64,000 nt of DNA from Candidatus Nitrosopelagicus sp. (lineage in GTDB: Archaea; Thermoproteota; Nitrososphaeria; Nitrososphaerales; Nitrosopumilaceae), in assembly GCA_028343435.1 (NCBI GenBank), contig JAOLYM010000002.1, positions 30,674-94,673 on the forward strand, read 5' to 3'. Made by a program: the position numbers and the translations under genes. Under the pieces are notes generated by a model. It saw only the letters and a list, made by a program, of their open reading frames with translations, ran no database searches and was not told where the DNA came from. Positions 7,846 to 63,663 of the stretch are shown here, piece after piece; the stretch's first letter is position 1, and every line of letters begins with the position of its first letter.

Positions 7846-8603
7846 TAATCTTCTATTTCTTCGCCCAAGTTAATAGTTCTGCTTAATGCACTTTGTAGAT
7901 TTACCATTCCATCTCCTGTTGCATTAGAAACTGGAATCAAATCCTGTTGAAAATCATGTCTGTTCAAACTTGTTAACATGTCTGATATTAGAGAAAATGT
8001 GTCTCCATTCACTTCTCCTGCTAAATCTGCCTCTAACTGTGAGTCTGTTCCAGACCAGCTTAACACTTTTTCTAATTTTTCTTGTATCAAGTCTGTTTTG
8101 GTAATTACATTAACTGTCGGTAATCCTAGTCGTAATCTTATTGATGTTGACAATAATGTTAGTGATACAAAATTATTTGGAGTTGAAACCATTGTTCCAT
8201 CAAACAAAAACAAGTTCATTTTTTCTTCTGCGATAAACTCATTTACAAAAAATGGACCACTCTGTCTGTATGCAAATAATTCAATTTGTCCTGGTGTATC
8301 CACTATAAGGTAATCTGGATTAATTGTATCTGCTTCTTTTTGTATATCATCAATTTTTGTAGCAATCAAATCATTTGCCATTATCAAAGAGCCATTTGAT
8401 CCTAACTCGTATTGTTCCATCAATGAATTAAGATCAATGTAGTCTCTGACATCAATATCTGGTGAATATGGTAGACTTGCTACTCCCGGATCTAAATTCA
8501 GTGTAATTGGAAATGTGGCATTTTTTGCATAATATTCCTTGAGTTTTGAAGTCAGTAACGACTTTCCTGCCCCTGCTGTGCCTGTAACAAAAATAACTTT
8601 CAA
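7845..8603 (-). CDS. GPN-loop GTPase
   Basis: 'VTGTAGAGKS', 'IVDTPGQIELF', GPN-type architecture. Confidence 0.9.
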   Translation of the reverse strand: MKVIFVTGTAGAGKSLLTSKLKEYYAKNATFPITLNLDPGVASLPYSPDIDVRDYIDLNSLMEQYELGSNGSLIMANDLIATKIDDIQKEADTINPDYLIVDTPGQIELFAYRQSGPFFVNEFIAEEKMNLFLFDGTMVSTPNNFVSLTLLSTSIRLRLGLPTVNVITKTDLIQEKLEKVLSWSGTDSQLEADLAGEVNGDTFSLISDMLTSLNRHDFQQDLIPVSNATGDGMVNLQSALSRTINLGEEIED

Positions 8604-8661
8604 TGGTTCGACAAAAATTCTTTTTTATTCGCTTATATTTGAATCTCTTAAAAATTGAGCA

Positions 8662-9678
8662 ATGAACTGGAGACTAGCAGTAATTCCTGTTACCCTCATA
8701 CCTATCATCATAATTGCTGTTCAATTTGACATTGAAGCAGAAGATATCTTTGCAATAGGGGCTATACCTTTTGCATTAGCCGTTTTAGCAATAATGACAA
8801 AATTAGGATTGCAAGGATTAAAGCTTGCATATATTGCACGAACTTTTCTTGGTCCATTTGATTCAATAAAACGTCTAACCGCAATGCGTGTTGGTAGTGA
8901 GTTTATCAAATTTACAACTCCAATGTTTGTTGGAGCAGAGTTTGCAGTCATTTATTACATGACAAAAAAAGGAATTTCAACATCAAAAGCATCATGGGTT
9001 GCATTATTAGATATTGTAACTGAAGTATTTGCTGCCGGCGTTCTTTCTATTATTGCTGGAATTTTAGCATTAATGTATGGTGCATATGTTGTTGGTGCAG
9101 TAGTTTTAGGAACAAGTATTCCAATAACTGGTTTATGGATTGTTTTATTCTTCATGTCATCAAAACGTACATTCACACTTCCTAGAGTAATTTCATACAT
9201 TGCTACTACACTAGGAAAAGAACGTGGAGAAAAATACGTCAAACAAACCAATGGTTGGATTGAAGATGTTTGTGTGATGAGTAGAGAAAATCTTCATTCT
9301 AGCAAATCAAAAAAAGTATTCATTGTAGGATTTTTTGTATCAATTGTATCTTGGATATGTTATGGAGTTTCATTTCTAATAATTGCAGATGGTGTAGGTT
9401 TTGCAGTAGAGTTCTTTGATTCAATTATGGCAGTAATGGGTGCAAATGCAATTGCCAATCTTCCAATTACAGTTGGTGGTTCAGGATTAGCTGAATTTGG
9501 AATAATTGCTTATCTAAATAATCTTGATCCATTTAATCTATCAGCTGATGTTGATCCACTTCAATGGAATGCTGTAATTGGATGGAGAATCGCTACATAC
9601 TACGTACCAATTGCTGTCACATGGATCTTATTGGTAAAATTAGCATTAAGTAAAATCAGTAAACCAAATTCTGCATGA
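8662..9678 (+). CDS. lysylphosphatidylglycerol synthase TM-region/UPF0104-like membrane protein (flippase-like)
   Basis: Polytopic; 'ANAIANLPITVGGSGLAEFGIIAYL'. Confidence 0.85.
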   Translation: MNWRLAVIPVTLIPIIIIAVQFDIEAEDIFAIGAIPFALAVLAIMTKLGLQGLKLAYIARTFLGPFDSIKRLTAMRVGSEFIKFTTPMFVGAEFAVIYYMTKKGISTSKASWVALLDIVTEVFAAGVLSIIAGILALMYGAYVVGAVVLGTSIPITGLWIVLFFMSSKRTFTLPRVISYIATTLGKERGEKYVKQTNGWIEDVCVMSRENLHSSKSKKVFIVGFFVSIVSWICYGVSFLIIADGVGFAVEFFDSIMAVMGANAIANLPITVGGSGLAEFGIIAYLNNLDPFNLSADVDPLQWNAVIGWRIATYYVPIAVTWILLVKLALSKISKPNSA

Positions 9679-56722: not shown

Positions 56723-57115
56723 ATGAAATATGATGCAACCATGAAACGAATAATGGACTCTGATCCAAACATAAGAAACTGCATTGTGGCTGATACGGAA
56801 GGAGAAATCAAGGCAGTAATGCATAGAGCTGGAATCCGTAACTATCTTAGTGATGAAGAAACATCTGAATCACTAAAACGTGCAGCAACTTCATGGAAGG
56901 CACGAAAACAACTATCCCCAAAAATTGGTCAAGGACAATATGCTGTTGCAGCATTTGAAAAACTAACAAGAATGACTTTTCCTGCAGGAAAAAATCATTT
57001 GGTATTTGTCAGCATGGCCTCAAATCCGGTAAGGGATGACTACCATCAAGGTGGAAGAGAAGATGTTGTTGAACATGTCTTGAATATCCTTAGCGGTGAT
57101 CCTACAAAAAACTAA
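56723..57115 (+). CDS. hypothetical protein, possibly roadblock/longin-like
   Basis: 130 aa; 'NIRNCIVADTEGEIKAVMHRAG...GKNHLVFVSM'; domain call tentative. Confidence 0.65.
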   Translation: MKYDATMKRIMDSDPNIRNCIVADTEGEIKAVMHRAGIRNYLSDEETSESLKRAATSWKARKQLSPKIGQGQYAVAAFEKLTRMTFPAGKNHLVFVSMASNPVRDDYHQGGREDVVEHVLNILSGDPTKN

Positions 57116-57155
57116 ACATCAGAGATTACAACACTGGATATTTCTCTAGAATTCT

Positions 57156-57341
57156 CTATGCCCATTTTTCCAAGTTACTATCAAAGATAGTTGTCTTGTG
57201 AACTTTACGTAAATTCATCTTTGTTTTGTTTTTTAGAATACAGGATGCACAAATTTTGTGTGGCTTTAGACAATGGTTGCAATGAAAGGATTTTGATGCA
57301 TGTTTCTTTTTACAAAACTCACAAATTGACGAATCAATCAT
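57156..57341 (-). CDS. Cys-rich zinc-binding small protein
   Basis: 'CEFCKKKHASKSFHCNHCLKPHKICASC'. Confidence 0.55.
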   Translation of the reverse strand: MIDSSICEFCKKKHASKSFHCNHCLKPHKICASCILKNKTKMNLRKVHKTTIFDSNLEKWA

Positions 57342-57559
57342 TTGCTATTTTACATTTAGATTTTATTAAAAAACAGATGATGATTATTCAAACTTATTCT
57401 ATATATGAAAAATATGGAAAAAGGCAGGATATTTCCTTGAAATGAATGACTTTTGGATGCTCATATATAACAAAACTTGAGAATTGTCAAAAAATTAAAG
57501 CTCTAAGATAACTTTCTCTCATAATTTTATTTCAAATACTCTGGATGGTGTGGTATATC

Positions 57560-57730
57560 ATGGTAGAAGCATATGATGTGAAGGCCAGAAAGAAAGTAGA
57601 GATCAAGGATCCTAAAGTCGTTCAACTAAAGAACGGACGTTATGCGATTAAAGGAACATCTCCTGATACAGGTATCACAGTTATGAGAATATGTGGTTCA
57701 GATAAAGCTAAAGCAGAAGCCCTAATCTAG
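57560..57730 (+). CDS. DUF5679-like small protein
   Basis: MVEAYDVKARKKVEIKDPKVVQLKNGRYAIKGTSPDTG. Confidence 0.7.
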   Translation: MVEAYDVKARKKVEIKDPKVVQLKNGRYAIKGTSPDTGITVMRICGSDKAKAEALI

Positions 57731-57937
57731 AACCTTTAACAAAAATGCGGCCCCTTTTGTTTTTCTAAATTTTTAACAAGCGTTTGCTATAAACTATTTT
57801 TGAAAAATGTGAGCAGAGACAGTAGTTTCAGTTCTTTTACAAGAAAATTACTAAAGCTCTTCCATCATTGTATGTGTATGGTTTGGTTATAGGTATTTCA
57901 AATGAAGATTATTTAGCTAGGAGTGAAATGTACATTC

Positions 57938-58144
57938 ATGCAAGAAGATTCTGCTAATGACTTGAAGGTTTTACAGGAATGGTTTGAGACTAATCGTGTA
58001 CGGGAGACTGGAATAGTTGAGAATGTACAAAAACAGCCAGCCTCGCCTGAGAGAGACGAGATGTTGGAAATCTGTAAGGGAAACATTGAGGAGTTTTCTA
58101 TGATGATTCAGTTAGTCGCAAGTATTATTGAAAGAGAAAAGTAA
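57938..58144 (+). CDS. small helical hypothetical protein
   Basis: MQEDSANDLKVLQEWFETNRVR... Confidence 0.5.
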   Translation: MQEDSANDLKVLQEWFETNRVRETGIVENVQKQPASPERDEMLEICKGNIEEFSMMIQLVASIIEREK

Positions 58145-58153
58145 AAGACTCAG

Positions 58154-58345
58154 TTAAGCATAGTATAATCTTGAATCAGGATCTCTGTGTATAAAATTTA
58201 ATCTCACTCCTAGTTTCATCAAATTAACAAACTCTCTAGAACTATCCCTTCCATAGCCAGCTTTAGTTTTCAAATCAGAATATGACAATGGAGTTTTCTT
58301 GAGAATTGTTAGAATATTTTCCACTTCTTCATTCATTTTCTTCAT
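58154..58345 (-). CDS. winged-helix small protein
   Basis: 'MKKMNEEVENILTILKKTPLSYSDLKTKAGYGRDSSREFVNLMKLGVRLNFIHRD'; overlaps upstream ORF. Confidence 0.65.
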   Translation of the reverse strand: MKKMNEEVENILTILKKTPLSYSDLKTKAGYGRDSSREFVNLMKLGVRLNFIHRDPDSRLYYA

Positions 58346-58553
58346 CCTCTCTATTTCCAAAAAGAAATCCACAATCATTACATGAAAATGCAGGATCATC
58401 ATTTGAGATGCAACATCCACCTAACTGATATTTTCCTTTATTCTCATCTTTTTTCAATTCATCTAAAAATTTTGAACTAGGATAGCCATACATTATTTCA
58501 GCAATGTTTGTTCTCTTGCAGTCAGGACATGTTTCTTTCATTGCATCACTCAT
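58329..58553 (-). CDS. zinc-finger small protein
   Basis: 'CPDCKRTN...CCISNDDPAFSCNDCGFLFG'. Confidence 0.65.
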   Translation of the reverse strand: MSDAMKETCPDCKRTNIAEIMYGYPSSKFLDELKKDENKGKYQLGGCCISNDDPAFSCNDCGFLFGNREDEENE

Positions 58554-59169
58554 GCAAATTCACCAATTCCTTCTTTCTCTGCCTTAAAATTAGCTCTGTA
58601 ATGTCTGCCGCATCTGCTATCTCGCGCTGTGTCTTTGAAACCTTATGTAATTTACATGCGGTATAGACTGCCGCAGCTGCCAATCCGTTGGGATTTTTTC
58701 CGCTCACCACATTTGCTTTTTTGGCCGCATCTAGAATTTTTCTTGCCGTTCTCATCACCAATTCTGTCTTGATAGGAGAAAGGCCCAAAGAATTTCCAAT
58801 CTTTCCAATCTTTTGCTTTGGATCCGGCAATCCCGGCTCTAAATCCAATTCTTTGTGTATCTTTCTATAAGATGTTTGAATGGATTTTTTCTTAAAATTA
58901 GATACTCTCTCTAAATCCAATAGCGTTCTTGAAGCGTTAGGGGAATGTCTTATTGCAGCATAAACGCATGCTACTATCATTATTCTGGTTGTCCTGCCGC
59001 TGATCTTTTTCTTGTGAATTTTCTTGTAAATCCTCATGGCATCCTCCTGGATAACTCGTGGTAGGTTCAACTTTTTTGTCAAATCTTCAGAAATAGCAAA
59101 TGCGGCTGGAAAATATCTATCACTCAAACCTTTGACTACTCTATCGATTTTCTTGAGTTTCTTCTTCAT
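58546..59169 (-). CDS. TFB (TFIIB) paralog consisting of cyclin repeats only
   Basis: Two cyclin folds ('RTTRIMIVACVYAAIRHS', 'NPNGLAAAAVYTACKLHKVSKTQREIADAADITELILRQRKKEL'); no zinc ribbon at N-terminus. Confidence 0.88.
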   Translation of the reverse strand: MKKKLKKIDRVVKGLSDRYFPAAFAISEDLTKKLNLPRVIQEDAMRIYKKIHKKKISGRTTRIMIVACVYAAIRHSPNASRTLLDLERVSNFKKKSIQTSYRKIHKELDLEPGLPDPKQKIGKIGNSLGLSPIKTELVMRTARKILDAAKKANVVSGKNPNGLAAAAVYTACKLHKVSKTQREIADAADITELILRQRKKELVNLHE

Positions 59170-59208
59170 TTCTATACTCCTCTAAGCCCATTATGGTTGA
59201 CGAGTCTT

Positions 59209-59307
59209 TTAATCATTAATCTCTCTCCTGCAAAATCCGCATATTTGAATTAATTTTGATGATGTACTGGGATATCGAACTATCTTCTCACACTGTTTAC
59301 ATCTCAT
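59209..59307 (-). CDS. 32-aa zinc-ribbon micro-ORF
   Basis: MRCKQCEKIVRYPSTSSKLIQICGFCRREIND; CxxC-x16-CxxC. Confidence 0.5.
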   Translation of the reverse strand: MRCKQCEKIVRYPSTSSKLIQICGFCRREIND

Positions 59308-59360
59308 GTACGCCAGGTCTCCATTTCTGAAAAAATAAAAAAAGAAAGGGGCATTTCCAG

Positions 59361-59627
59361 TCACACAGCTCCGTTTTTGTAAAGTCCCAATGCGATTACG
59401 ACTCCTGCCCCAGTAGGATAGTCTCTAATCATCTTGTACCCGTGGTCTAATGCGTCATTTAGTTGGCCTTCTCCGTAAGAGTAGGAATCTGGGTCGAAGG
59501 TTATCCCCACGAATCTCATCCTCACCAACCTTTTGTCGGTTTTTTCATTTTCGTATGTTAGTTCCTGTGTTATTTTGGTAAGACTGGCTTCCACATTGTT
59601 GAATCTTTTTCTGTCGGACTTGTTCAT
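59361..59627 (-). CDS. hypothetical protein
   Basis: 88 aa; start overlaps upstream stop. Confidence 0.6.
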   Translation of the reverse strand: MNKSDRKRFNNVEASLTKITQELTYENEKTDKRLVRMRFVGITFDPDSYSYGEGQLNDALDHGYKMIRDYPTGAGVVIALGLYKNGAV

Positions 59628-60091
59628 TTATTGTCACCTTTGTTGAACTTTCCACCATTTACTGCCCACCATGGAACGCTATGCCACGTATATTCCTGGT
59701 CTGTCTGCTCACAGAAGCATTTGAAACAGAGTCCATCAAGAACATCTGCCACGTCAATCTCTTTTGCAGCCATCTTATCTCTGCAACCAGTACAATGCAT
59801 GTTGATTGGAATAAACTCCATATGGTATGGAGAATCTTTTCCGTTTACTCTGACGGTATTCCATTTGTGAACCCTGGCAACAGTTGTTGGGCCAAATCCA
59901 ATTGTCACTGGTCTTAGCTTTTCACCTTGTGAACCAAGTGCCAAAACTGTTTGATGCATCTCCCAAAGCTTTTCACCGTGTTTACCACTGTCTTTGTTAC
60001 AGAGCAAACATGGTTTTACTTCCTGGTGTAGTCTCCAAAGATTCTTGCTGTGTTTTTTACTGTCTTTGAAACATCTTTTACATTCGCTCAT
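59624..60091 (-). CDS. multi-zinc-finger protein
   Basis: Start MSECKRCFKDSKKHSKNLWRLHQ; second copy CLLCNKDSGKHGEKLWEMHQ; distal CTGC and CFKC. Confidence 0.65.
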   Translation of the reverse strand: MSECKRCFKDSKKHSKNLWRLHQEVKPCLLCNKDSGKHGEKLWEMHQTVLALGSQGEKLRPVTIGFGPTTVARVHKWNTVRVNGKDSPYHMEFIPINMHCTGCRDKMAAKEIDVADVLDGLCFKCFCEQTDQEYTWHSVPWWAVNGGKFNKGDNK

Positions 60092-60134
60092 TGAAAGGTA
60101 ATTAGTGAATAACCCTATTATCATTCACGTCAAC

Positions 60135-60164: not shown

Positions 60165-61097
60165 CTAAGCCTTACTAGTCGCATTAACCTCTACTGATTC
60201 TTTGATTTTTTCATAGGCTGCCGCAATTTCTTTAAACTTTCTTTCTGCCTCTTTTTTATCCTGGCATCTGTCCGGATGATGTTTCAATGCTAGTTCTCTA
60301 TAGCGTTTCTTTACTTGGGAGAATTCTGCATCCTCTGGAAGGCCCAAAATCTCATAACACTCATCTAGGTCAACTGTATCTCCTAACAGATCCTTGAATG
60401 CATCTTCCCATGCTTTCTCCCAATCATCTTTATGCCAGTCTCTTCCTGTGGATCTTTTGTATTCTTGTTTTGCTTTTTCATAATTTTCTCTTGCTCGTTT
60501 TTCTTTTTCACTTGGTTCATACCAGTCATAATCCCAAACATGCTCCCACAGTGTATCCTGTTCGTCATCAAACTCCTCTTCAATATCATCAATCTTTTCT
60601 TGAATCTTTTCCTGTAGGGAATCATTACTTGTTGCCCAGTATCTATCCCAAAGCTTTTTTGTAGCATGATCTTTTCGCTCATCAATATCTTCTTGAATTT
60701 TCCAAAACTCCTCTTCGGTAAAATCCCATTTCCTCGCATCTTTCCAATTCTTTTTCCAATCATTTCGTTTGTTCCGAAAATCTTCTTCTTGTTTACGTTT
60801 TTGTTGTTCTCGTTCCCACTCCTCATCTCGTCGTTTACGTTCTGCTTTCCTCCATTCTGCCTTTCTTTTCTTTTCTTCCTCGATACGGTATTGATATGTG
60901 TCACATGACTCCATATGGTCTGCTAGGCCTCCCTTTCTTCGATATTTTTTGTCACACCCAGGACATGCAATCTGAGGTTTGCTTGTCCACCACCAGGAGA
61001 CTGCAATCAGTGTTATTACTGGAATAGTAATGTACCAAAAGTATACCAGCACCGCAATTATTCCAAATATCAATAACCCTATTATCAAAAGAATCAT
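60165..61097 (-). CDS. membrane-anchored zinc-finger / coiled-coil / C-terminal J-domain protein
   Basis: N-terminal TMs, '[21 protein letters not shown]', C-terminal '[51 protein letters not shown]'. Confidence 0.85.
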
Positions 61098-61103
61098 CGT
61101 TCA

Positions 61104-61466
61104 TTACAACCCCTTTATCCACTCTGCGTAGACATTTCTCATTTTTTCATCCAAACTTGGGTCATGCTCTATCATGTGTTGATACAGGACGGCCAAACTG
61201 TATCCAAGATGAAGCAAAGAATCTATCTGATATTCATATGGAATTTCTAAAATTCTATCAATTGCCCATCTTGCGTCTTTTGGGTTGTTAAACAAACTAG
61301 CATAGAATAATTTTGTAGCACTAATACTGGCCTTTTCAGACAAATGCCATTGTCGTTCAAAACAAAAATTGGTTAAATGTTTAGTACCTTCTGTACCATA
61401 CTTTACTAATTCTTCCACAACCCGGTATTCGTACTCTGTTAGAACATCATGTTCTGTGTGATGCAT
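61104..61466 (-). CDS. helical hypothetical protein
   Basis: 120-aa ORF, start overlaps upstream stop. Confidence 0.6.
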   Translation of the reverse strand: MHHTEHDVLTEYEYRVVEELVKYGTEGTKHLTNFCFERQWHLSEKASISATKLFYASLFNNPKDARWAIDRILEIPYEYQIDSLLHLGYSLAVLYQHMIEHDPSLDEKMRNVYAEWIKGL

Positions 61467-61735
61467 TATCTCATATCCTCCCTGGTATCTTTTGACATGT
61501 GATCAATTGGAGTATCAAAGTCATCATCACCAGAATGATCCTTGTCATCAGAATGGACGTTCAGATTGTTAACATTGTATGTATTGTTGTATGTGTTGTC
61601 GTTATACTGGGAAAATCTGAAATGTTTTCTAATATCCTCGTAAAAATAAATTACTAAAATTATGATTCCTGCAGGAGTTCCAATTCCTGAACAGATTAAA
61701 AATACTCCAATGAATAACCACCATCTACTTGCCAA
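61466..61735 (-). CDS. small membrane protein (TTG start)
   Basis: MASRWWLFIGVFLICSGIGTPAGIIILVIYFYEDI...; TTG start overlaps upstream stop. Confidence 0.55.
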   Translation of the reverse strand: MASRWWLFIGVFLICSGIGTPAGIIILVIYFYEDIRKHFRFSQYNDNTYNNTYNVNNLNVHSDDKDHSGDDDFDTPIDHMSKDTREDMR

Positions 61736-61820
61736 AGATTGCCTCCATGATTCTTTTTGGTTTTACTAAACCGGAGCAAACCAAAAAAACAAATGCATAC
61801 AGTCCCCAGTTACTTGCCAA
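61725..61820 (-). CDS. 31-aa membrane micro-protein (TTG start)
   Basis: MASNWGLYAFVFLVCSGLVKPKRIMEAIFGK; too short for ORF track; parallels the N-terminus of 61466-61735. Confidence 0.45.
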   Translation of the reverse strand: MASNWGLYAFVFLVCSGLVKPKRIMEAIFGK

Positions 61821-62514
61821 AGATAATCTCCAAAATTCTTTCCAGCGTCTCAAGAAGTGATAATCTTAATTCTAAAATGTCTACTCCTGCATACTCTCTT
61901 ACACCTTTTTCAGTTACCTGTTGGGAAAATTTACCGATAGACTTTCCATCGTATGAAACAATGACGTCATGTGTGCCAACTTCATCTAAATTTAGTGTAG
62001 TTTCAAAATCTCCATTGTTTGAAGTCTTTACTACAATATTTTGCGCCTGGTATGTTGGAGAAATTGTTGTCACTGCAACCGGAATATCTTTTATTTTACT
62101 TCCAACATTTCCTTCTAACTGATTTCCTGAAATTGTAACTGTTGCATCTTGTATGATAATTTGTGGTTTTATGACAATTGTACCTGTTGAGTTTGTGTTG
62201 ACCCATTCGTATGTTCCTGCTTCGTACGGCATGTTACCAGTCCAGGTACCATTTGTGTATAATTCTCCGGAGGAAAACAATCCGCCGGTATGACGAAGAT
62301 TAATTGTAGAATTTGTTAAATTCTTTAGAAAAATAACATCTCCTTGTTCAATTTCCAGATAATTTGGTAGAGTGTTAACAAACTCGTGTTGTTCTGCAAA
62401 TGCTGCAGGGACTAGAGTGATTAGGACTATTGCTCCGAGCAAAAATGTAATTCTTTTAATTGGAACCGGCTCCGTGCAGTTTTCTGCCAAAATATACGGA
62501 GCCAGTTTTTCCAT
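61810..62514 (-). CDS. secreted cupredoxin-like/beta-sandwich protein
   Basis: Signal segment, 'NYLEIEQGDVIFLKNLTNSTINLRHTGGLFSSGE...YEAGTYEWVNTNSTGTIVIKP'. Confidence 0.65.
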   Translation of the reverse strand: MEKLAPYILAENCTEPVPIKRITFLLGAIVLITLVPAAFAEQHEFVNTLPNYLEIEQGDVIFLKNLTNSTINLRHTGGLFSSGELYTNGTWTGNMPYEAGTYEWVNTNSTGTIVIKPQIIIQDATVTISGNQLEGNVGSKIKDIPVAVTTISPTYQAQNIVVKTSNNGDFETTLNLDEVGTHDVIVSYDGKSIGKFSQQVTEKGVREYAGVDILELRLSLLETLERILEIIFGK

Positions 62515-62555
62515 ATAGTAGATTTAACAGAAAACCTATTATTCAACACGGCATT

Positions 62556-62575
62556 AGTATGCATACTGTACATAC
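62556..62575. promoter_or_regulatory. operator-like element copy 2 (AGTATGCATACTGTACATAC)
   Basis: In the divergent promoter region; 42 bp upstream of 62514 start and 1 bp upstream of ATG at 62577. Confidence 0.85.
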
Positions 62576-62576
62576 T

Positions 62577-63341
62577 ATGTCAAGTAATCTAAAACTTCGA
62601 GTTCACATAGCTCCCGTAGGCTTTGAGATAGACAGGATTGTCATTCCTGCAAAGAAGATGCGCGCAGACAAGATCTGGCTTATTGGACATGACCAGCGTT
62701 CATCTGACAAGGCTCGTCCTTTTTTGGAAAAAGTCAGAAAAATTCTTGAAAAGAACAACATCGAGGTAAAAGAGGCAAATGCGGACAGATACAAGCTGTT
62801 TGACATTGTTCGTGTCGTAAAGCAAATAATCTTACAAGACCGGGAACACGACATCTATCTGAATGTAGCAAGCGGATCAAAGATTCATGCAGTCGGAGTG
62901 ATGATGGCAACAATGATCTTTAATGACAGAACAAACCTTCATCCATTTTATGCACAGGCAAAAGATTACCATCATACAAAGATCTCCGAGCCACAAACAA
63001 CCGGCATTGAAACAATTTCTGACCTGCCGACATACCAAATCCAGACGCCACCACAAAAGCAGATAGCTGCATTAAAAATAATAAAAGAGCACGAGGAAAA
63101 TGGAAAAAGAGTTTCCAAGATAAAGAAAAAGGATTTAGCTGAAAAGGTAATAGAAGCTAAAATTATTGAGGTCAATGCTAGAATTGGAAATCAATCCCAG
63201 GCAACATTTGCAAGTCTTGACAAAAACATAATCTCTCCGTTAGAAAACGTATGGGGTTATGTCAGAACTGAAAAGGTTGGCCGCAACAGATGGATTCATC
63301 TCACCGACGAGGGAAGATGGGCATCAGAATTTTTAATCTAA
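62577..63341 (+). CDS. CARF-domain winged-helix regulator (HFX_2341/DUF6293-like)
   Basis: 'RVHIAPVGFEIDRI', 'LFDIVRVVKQIILQDREHDIYLNVASGSKIHAVGVMMATM', 'TGIETISDLPTYQIQTP', C-terminal wHTH. Confidence 0.85.
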   Translation: MSSNLKLRVHIAPVGFEIDRIVIPAKKMRADKIWLIGHDQRSSDKARPFLEKVRKILEKNNIEVKEANADRYKLFDIVRVVKQIILQDREHDIYLNVASGSKIHAVGVMMATMIFNDRTNLHPFYAQAKDYHHTKISEPQTTGIETISDLPTYQIQTPPQKQIAALKIIKEHEENGKRVSKIKKKDLAEKVIEAKIIEVNARIGNQSQATFASLDKNIISPLENVWGYVRTEKVGRNRWIHLTDEGRWASEFLI

Positions 63342-63622
63342 AACTGCATCTTTGAAAACCATCTTCTTATGGTATACTTTCTGACAAATGCCACCATCGT
63401 AAAGACCACAGTTATTTGTAAAAATCCTACTATCTCTTGGTTTGCAATTTGGTCTGAAAACATCGGAAGCACGAAAAAATTTATCGGAAGATACATCAAA
63501 AAGCCGACTACGATGTCCGTGATACTTTCAATGATTGATTTTTTTCTAGAATCCTGACCAAAATTTTCAAATTCACTCTCGGTTTGCGAAAATTCTTCTT
63601 TTCTTATCGAATCTCTATTCAT
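63338..63622 (-). CDS. small two-TM protein
   Basis: Start MNRDSIRKEEF; two hydrophobic segments. Confidence 0.6.
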   Translation of the reverse strand: MNRDSIRKEEFSQTESEFENFGQDSRKKSIIESITDIVVGFLMYLPINFFVLPMFSDQIANQEIVGFLQITVVFTMVAFVRKYTIRRWFSKMQF

Positions 63623-63663
63623 GCTAATTATGACCAAAATTTGATGATAAATCTCTCCAAAAG

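Follow-up and report, generated by a model that had tools for sequence, protein, structure and literature searches.

The window, by which we mean the whole 64,000-nucleotide stretch of Candidatus Nitrosopelagicus DNA analysed here, encodes a TFB paralogue that consists of the cyclin-repeat core alone. Judged from sequence comparison, this core-only architecture is genuine, and it is rare, with two members known. We think it somewhat probable that the protein is cargo of a hypervariable, defence-associated hotspot where it would serve as a promoter competitor or repressor that does not recruit RNA polymerase (RNAP), and that the 32-aa zinc-binding-type protein encoded next to it acts independently.

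Profile searches found two TFIIB cyclin repeats in the 207-aa protein (Pfam PF00382 twice, E 7e-32), and the NCBIfam model NF001658 matched at its positions 116–304 of 312. As the match begins only at position 116, the protein lacks the zinc ribbon, the B-reader and the greater part of the B-linker; in an alignment with TFBs of the genus, its first residues fall in the last stretch of the B-linker. Neither a PF08271 zinc ribbon nor a B-reader/B-linker was found in the protein, and no reading frame contains a ribbon fused to the core. With cyclin repeats present and this N-terminal part missing, we class it as a TFB-core paralogue and not as a full TFB, in agreement with the original prediction of a TFB that starts at its cyclin repeats and has no ribbon or B-finger. 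Residues 22–204 align with the archaeal TFB core crystallised in 1d3u and 1ais (PDB 1d3u_B, E 1e-30). A single-sequence AlphaFold model was of low confidence (pLDDT 49) and was not used. A GAGGAG Shine-Dalgarno-like box lies 7 nt 5' of the ATG. The same assembly encodes two other TFBs, of 300 and about 340 aa, both of which have N-terminal regions before the core. The assembly is 66% complete; TBP did not turn up in it and is probably encoded in the missing part.

The match to full-length human TFIIB ends at residue 198 of our protein, corresponding to TFIIB 288, and hence places R196 at TFIIB R286 and L193 at V283. These two TFIIB residues are the BRE-reading pair. The equivalent of V283 is thus a leucine, and the promoter preference of the core-only TFB may therefore differ.

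Table 1. Features of the hotspot region in the window (positions are those of the window).
Feature	Position	Strand	Description and evidence
Left hotspot flank, conserved	56723..58144	+	130-aa, DUF5679 61-aa and 73-aa proteins; same order in relatives
About 60-aa winged-helix-like protein (MNEEVENIL...)	58154..58336	-	ATG overlaps stop of 74-aa gene; relative in G013; start is our own reading inside an 88-aa ORF
74-aa zinc protein	58329..58553	-	Start codon overlaps TFB stop (ATGAGTGATG)
Core-only TFB paralogue	58546..59169	-	207 aa, two cyclin (TFIIB) repeats, without zinc ribbon/B-reader; PF00382, NF001658, 1d3u_B
32-aa CxxC-x16-CxxC zinc-binding-type micro-protein	59209..59307	-	MRCKQCEKIVRYPSTSSKLIQICGFCRREIND; homologues in 11/31 genus genomes; dN/dS; no PF08271
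88-aa conserved module protein, cluster c12	59361..59627	-	Homologues at loci of 7 relatives
166-aa Cys/His-rich protein, cluster c0, module marker	59624..60124	-	In 13/31 genus genomes
310-aa membrane protein, C-terminal DnaJ domain, weak C2H2 finger	60165..61097	-	PF00226 E 9e-19
120-aa module protein, cluster c15	61104..61466	-	Locus comparison with relatives
89-aa small membrane protein, cluster c3	61466..61735	-	Locus comparison with relatives
234-aa module protein, apparent secretion signal	61810..62514	-	G014 homologue, 76% identical
CARF-type/HFX_2341-like winged-helix regulator	62460..63341	+	PF19810 E 1e-33; PF22665 E 8e-22; PADLOC CARF E 7e-72
99-aa membrane protein, cluster c9	63338..63637	-	phrog_4276 E 4e-16

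The closest relative of the core-only TFB is a protein of 201 aa with 57% identity, encoded in G020 (isolate AH-558-C08, Candidatus Nitrosopelagicus), which belongs to a species different from that of the window's genome. It starts at the same point, just 3' of a tRNA-Lys gene. The 75 bp between the two genes leave no room for a ribbon, and no ribbon ORF was found at this locus. The search for fused orthologs led to a single close relative that also begins at the core, and the idea of a core-only TFB was strengthened by this second, independently placed member. The two proteins form a clade (support 96/96), are identical over TELILRQRK and share a 4-residue insert around SPIKTEL in the second repeat. 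They are the only such members among 251 family genomes. Across 400 class genomes, a fall in hit score from 401 to 140 bits separates these two from the next best hit, a TFB of about 315 aa. When TFIIB repeats were surveyed in 71 class genomes, all frames among the best matches listed had at least 300 aa. A related-locus search with the single TFB sequence found no relatives, and with a two-row alignment it recovered the G020 record alone.

The two core-only genes differ at 71, 51 and 106 first, second and third codon positions, respectively, and the NG86 method gave dN 0.37, dS 1.77 and a dN/dS of about 0.2, with dS near saturation. This pattern points to selection on the protein and thus to a functional product. 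One might regard the gene as the remnant of a TFB whose N-terminus is already gone and which is now decaying out of the genome, as the absence of that part and the location in a high-turnover hotspot could suggest. Yet the ORF is intact and preceded by the Shine-Dalgarno-like box, a copy in another species is truncated at the same point, and the comparison of the two shows the selection signature, which makes artefact or fresh decay unlikely; we consider a dying gene quite improbable.

The separate 32-aa ORF predicted just upstream of the TFB gene is present on the same strand; 39 bp separate its stop codon from the ATG of the TFB gene. At the DNA level, the window contains two occurrences of the CxxC-x16-CxxC motif, where 0.18 would be expected. 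The micro-ORF was conserved, with a family in 11 of the 31 Nitrosopelagicus genomes and the consensus MRCKQCEKVVRHPS..SK..QMCGxCR. Compared with its G014 homologue, dN/dS was about 0.05–0.10 (NG86/YN00); this ratio marks the micro-ORF as a real coding sequence under strong purifying selection. The ten aligned family members have MRC at the ATG, and the G015 member has TTG at the start position. A longer reading, a 51-aa ORF with GTG start (59209–59364), was rejected because the family alignment sets the start at the ATG. The micro-ORF also matched phrog_23358 (E 1.3e-4), and a tblastn follow-up of this family gave only hits of E 4–7 in Pseudomonas and Variovorax phages; we hence discarded a phage kinship, since the match is probably a convergence of short CxxC proteins.

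Conserved as it is, the micro-ORF was not conserved as a TFB partner. According to the original prediction, the two ORFs might form a split TFB, in which the 32-aa protein would be the detached zinc ribbon and would recruit RNAP jointly with the core, in trans. The genes are adjacent, on the same strand and probably co-transcribed, and the cysteine spacing is compatible with a ribbon. However, PF08271 did not match any of the five family members tested at E<=1, whereas control ribbon fragments of 37–40 aa, cut from TFBs of this genome, G006 and G021, matched it at 2e-9, 6e-11 and 4e-4, respectively, the last of them from a divergent island TFB. Furthermore, at none of the family's other loci, in ten other genomes, does a core-only TFB stand beside the micro-ORF. 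The micro-ORF is found in 11 genomes and the core-only TFB in 2; G020 has both, but on different contigs, with its core-only TFB lacking a ribbon ORF, and the G006 micro-ORF has two TFBs in its vicinity, each of which carries a ribbon itself. In relatives the micro-ORF adjoins a different zinc protein: in G014 and G021 a homologue of the 74-aa protein follows directly 3', and in G029 a related protein is encoded nearby. In the window, the TFB gene lies between the micro-ORF and the 74-aa gene. A ribbon in trans would also leave the B-reader and B-linker missing. Beyond adjacency and cysteine spacing nothing positive speaks for it; such a role is thus not supported, and we judge it very improbable. 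The 32-aa protein is, from these comparisons, an independent conserved gene of the module.

The shared reading frame of micro-ORF and core could also hint at a normal TFB broken by an assembly error or frameshift. Three in-frame stops (TAA, TAA, TAG) separate the two, however, and the gap encodes no B-linker in any frame, so that a single frameshift or readthrough event would not join them. The available length is insufficient as well, and the G020 protein is an independent core-only homologue. An artefact thus has a negligible probability, and splitting by frameshift or readthrough was rejected on the same grounds.

The TFB gene is part of a chain of minus-strand ORFs running from 62514 to 58154. 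The ORFs lie on the same strand and overlap or are separated by short gaps (mostly <80 bp), and we hence regard the arrangement as operon-like. The chain comprises, in order, the genes of the 234-aa, 89-aa membrane, 120-aa, 310-aa DnaJ, 166-aa Cys/His-rich and 88-aa proteins, the micro-ORF, the TFB, the 74-aa zinc protein and the winged-helix-like protein; the CARF-type regulator is encoded on the opposite strand. The 166-aa family had no match in Pfam, NCBIfam, PADLOC or PHROG and marks an apparently undescribed Nitrosopelagicus module. The DnaJ protein is a membrane protein that combines a C2H2-like finger (zf-C2H2, E 0.0015, below the cut-off), a long charged region and the C-terminal DnaJ domain. 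At nine loci, a regulator of the CARF-type, HFX_2341-like family is encoded together with the small zinc-protein module.

Homologues of many genes of the chain are grouped in further Nitrosopelagicus genomes, either at this site or at a different one. The site is a chromosomal hotspot (in relatives, loci L073–L077 and L082), with constant flanks between which about 5–15 kb of cargo are swapped among genomes of the genus. The left flank is the one given in Table 1, and the right flank was seen in G001, G013, G016 and G018. Known defence genes were found in the variable part of the relatives' copies: cargo in G014, G020 and G021 includes McrBC, a UvrD/GajB-like helicase, DprA and a DNA methyltransferase. 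From the window's own copy, only the CARF regulator matched the defence library; the 94.7-kb contig ends about 5 kb past the TFB gene, and the island is visible in part only. We rejected a viral origin of the module, as viral contigs, scanned with patterns for the TFB (in two ways), the micro-ORF and the 166-aa protein, yielded no relatives. The plasmid hits listed for the TFB were haloarchaeal and Thermococcus TFBs of at most 41% identity, so that among these results close relatives were found in neither viral nor plasmid records.

TFBs in the islands of relatives vary at their N-termini. The hotspot TFB of G014 (L062:4123-4899) carries a C-x2-C-x12-H-x4-C finger in place of the zinc ribbon, has no PF08271 match, shows a shortened B-reader region with the B-linker kept, and groups with an ordinary TFB (support 98/98). 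In the module TFB of G026 the first knuckle is degenerate and PF08271 does not match, and the island TFB of locus L064 is without a recognisable ribbon; the 304-aa TFB of G006 and the G021 TFB have retained theirs. Two divergent TFBs, of 379 and 304 aa, share a 6-kb stretch of the G006 island (L068:3232-4371, 8266-9180). From this variety, TFBs of such islands seem to have lost or exchanged their ribbons on more than one occasion. We may speculate that the RNAP-recruiting N-terminus is removed or replaced time and again in hotspot modules, giving core-only proteins as here or C2HC forms as in G014, and that this creates TBP-dependent, promoter-specific repressors or regulators of accessory or defence genes with small zinc proteins as partners; as a general rule, we find this doubtful.

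In TFBs, the core contacts TBP and the BRE, and the ribbon and B-reader/linker contact RNAP. It follows that the core alone should form a non-recruiting complex that excludes full-length TFB. To bind TBP on TATA/BRE DNA, the core-only protein would use its cyclin repeats and the recognition helix that it has kept. Without zinc ribbon, B-reader and B-linker, the core itself would not bring in RNAP, and full-length TFB would have to compete with the TBP–core–DNA complex. Transcription would then decrease at promoters preferred by the core, which may belong to its own module or to the host, and repression at these promoters is its most likely outcome. As far as sequence allows, the dominant-negative or specialised-factor role named in the original prediction remains the most reasonable guess. 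Alternatively, the core-only TFB might be a specialised co-factor or activator that works at certain promoters together with a full-length TFB or some other recruiter. The neighbouring accessory zinc proteins and the CARF-type regulator could supply recruitment, and thaumarchaea, with 8–11 TFBs, possibly use them in combinations (PMC4084955). As a lone core is expected to fill the single TFB site, we hold such a role to be rather unlikely.

A natural TFB with only the promoter-binding half offers a direct test of basal-factor competition as a mode of archaeal gene control, and of whether defence-associated islands bring their own basal factors. It also bears on why thaumarchaea keep many TFBs. 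Furthermore, our analysis corrects a tempting misreading, in that the micro-ORF next to the ribbonless TFB resembles a zinc ribbon but is not the missing one.

TFIIB homologues have been described on thaumarchaeal integrative-conjugative elements and set a precedent for mobile TFBs; in the part of that report considered here, they stand mostly beside ParB and conjugation genes, none of which were seen at the window locus, and no ribbonless form is described among them (PMC6563490). For N. brevis CN25, Krupovic et al. report that no mobile element is integrated (PMC6563490). The viral TFB of Acidianus rod-shaped virus 3 is likewise an accessory TFB, but it has 281 aa and 27% identity. With archaeal TFB/TFIIB (NF001658, PF00382; 1d3u, 1ais), the core-only proteins share both cyclin repeats, an alignment over the full core and the recognition-helix arginine; unlike these, they lack zinc ribbon, B-reader and B-linker and carry the insert in the second repeat. 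No natural core-only TFB was described in the open-access literature searched, which is weak evidence of absence. The nearest described natural truncated TFB that we found is the Sulfolobus paralogue TFB3 (sso0280), but it represents the other half: its truncation is opposite, as TFB3 retains the ribbon but has neither a B-finger nor a BRE-binding HTH (PMC2246294).
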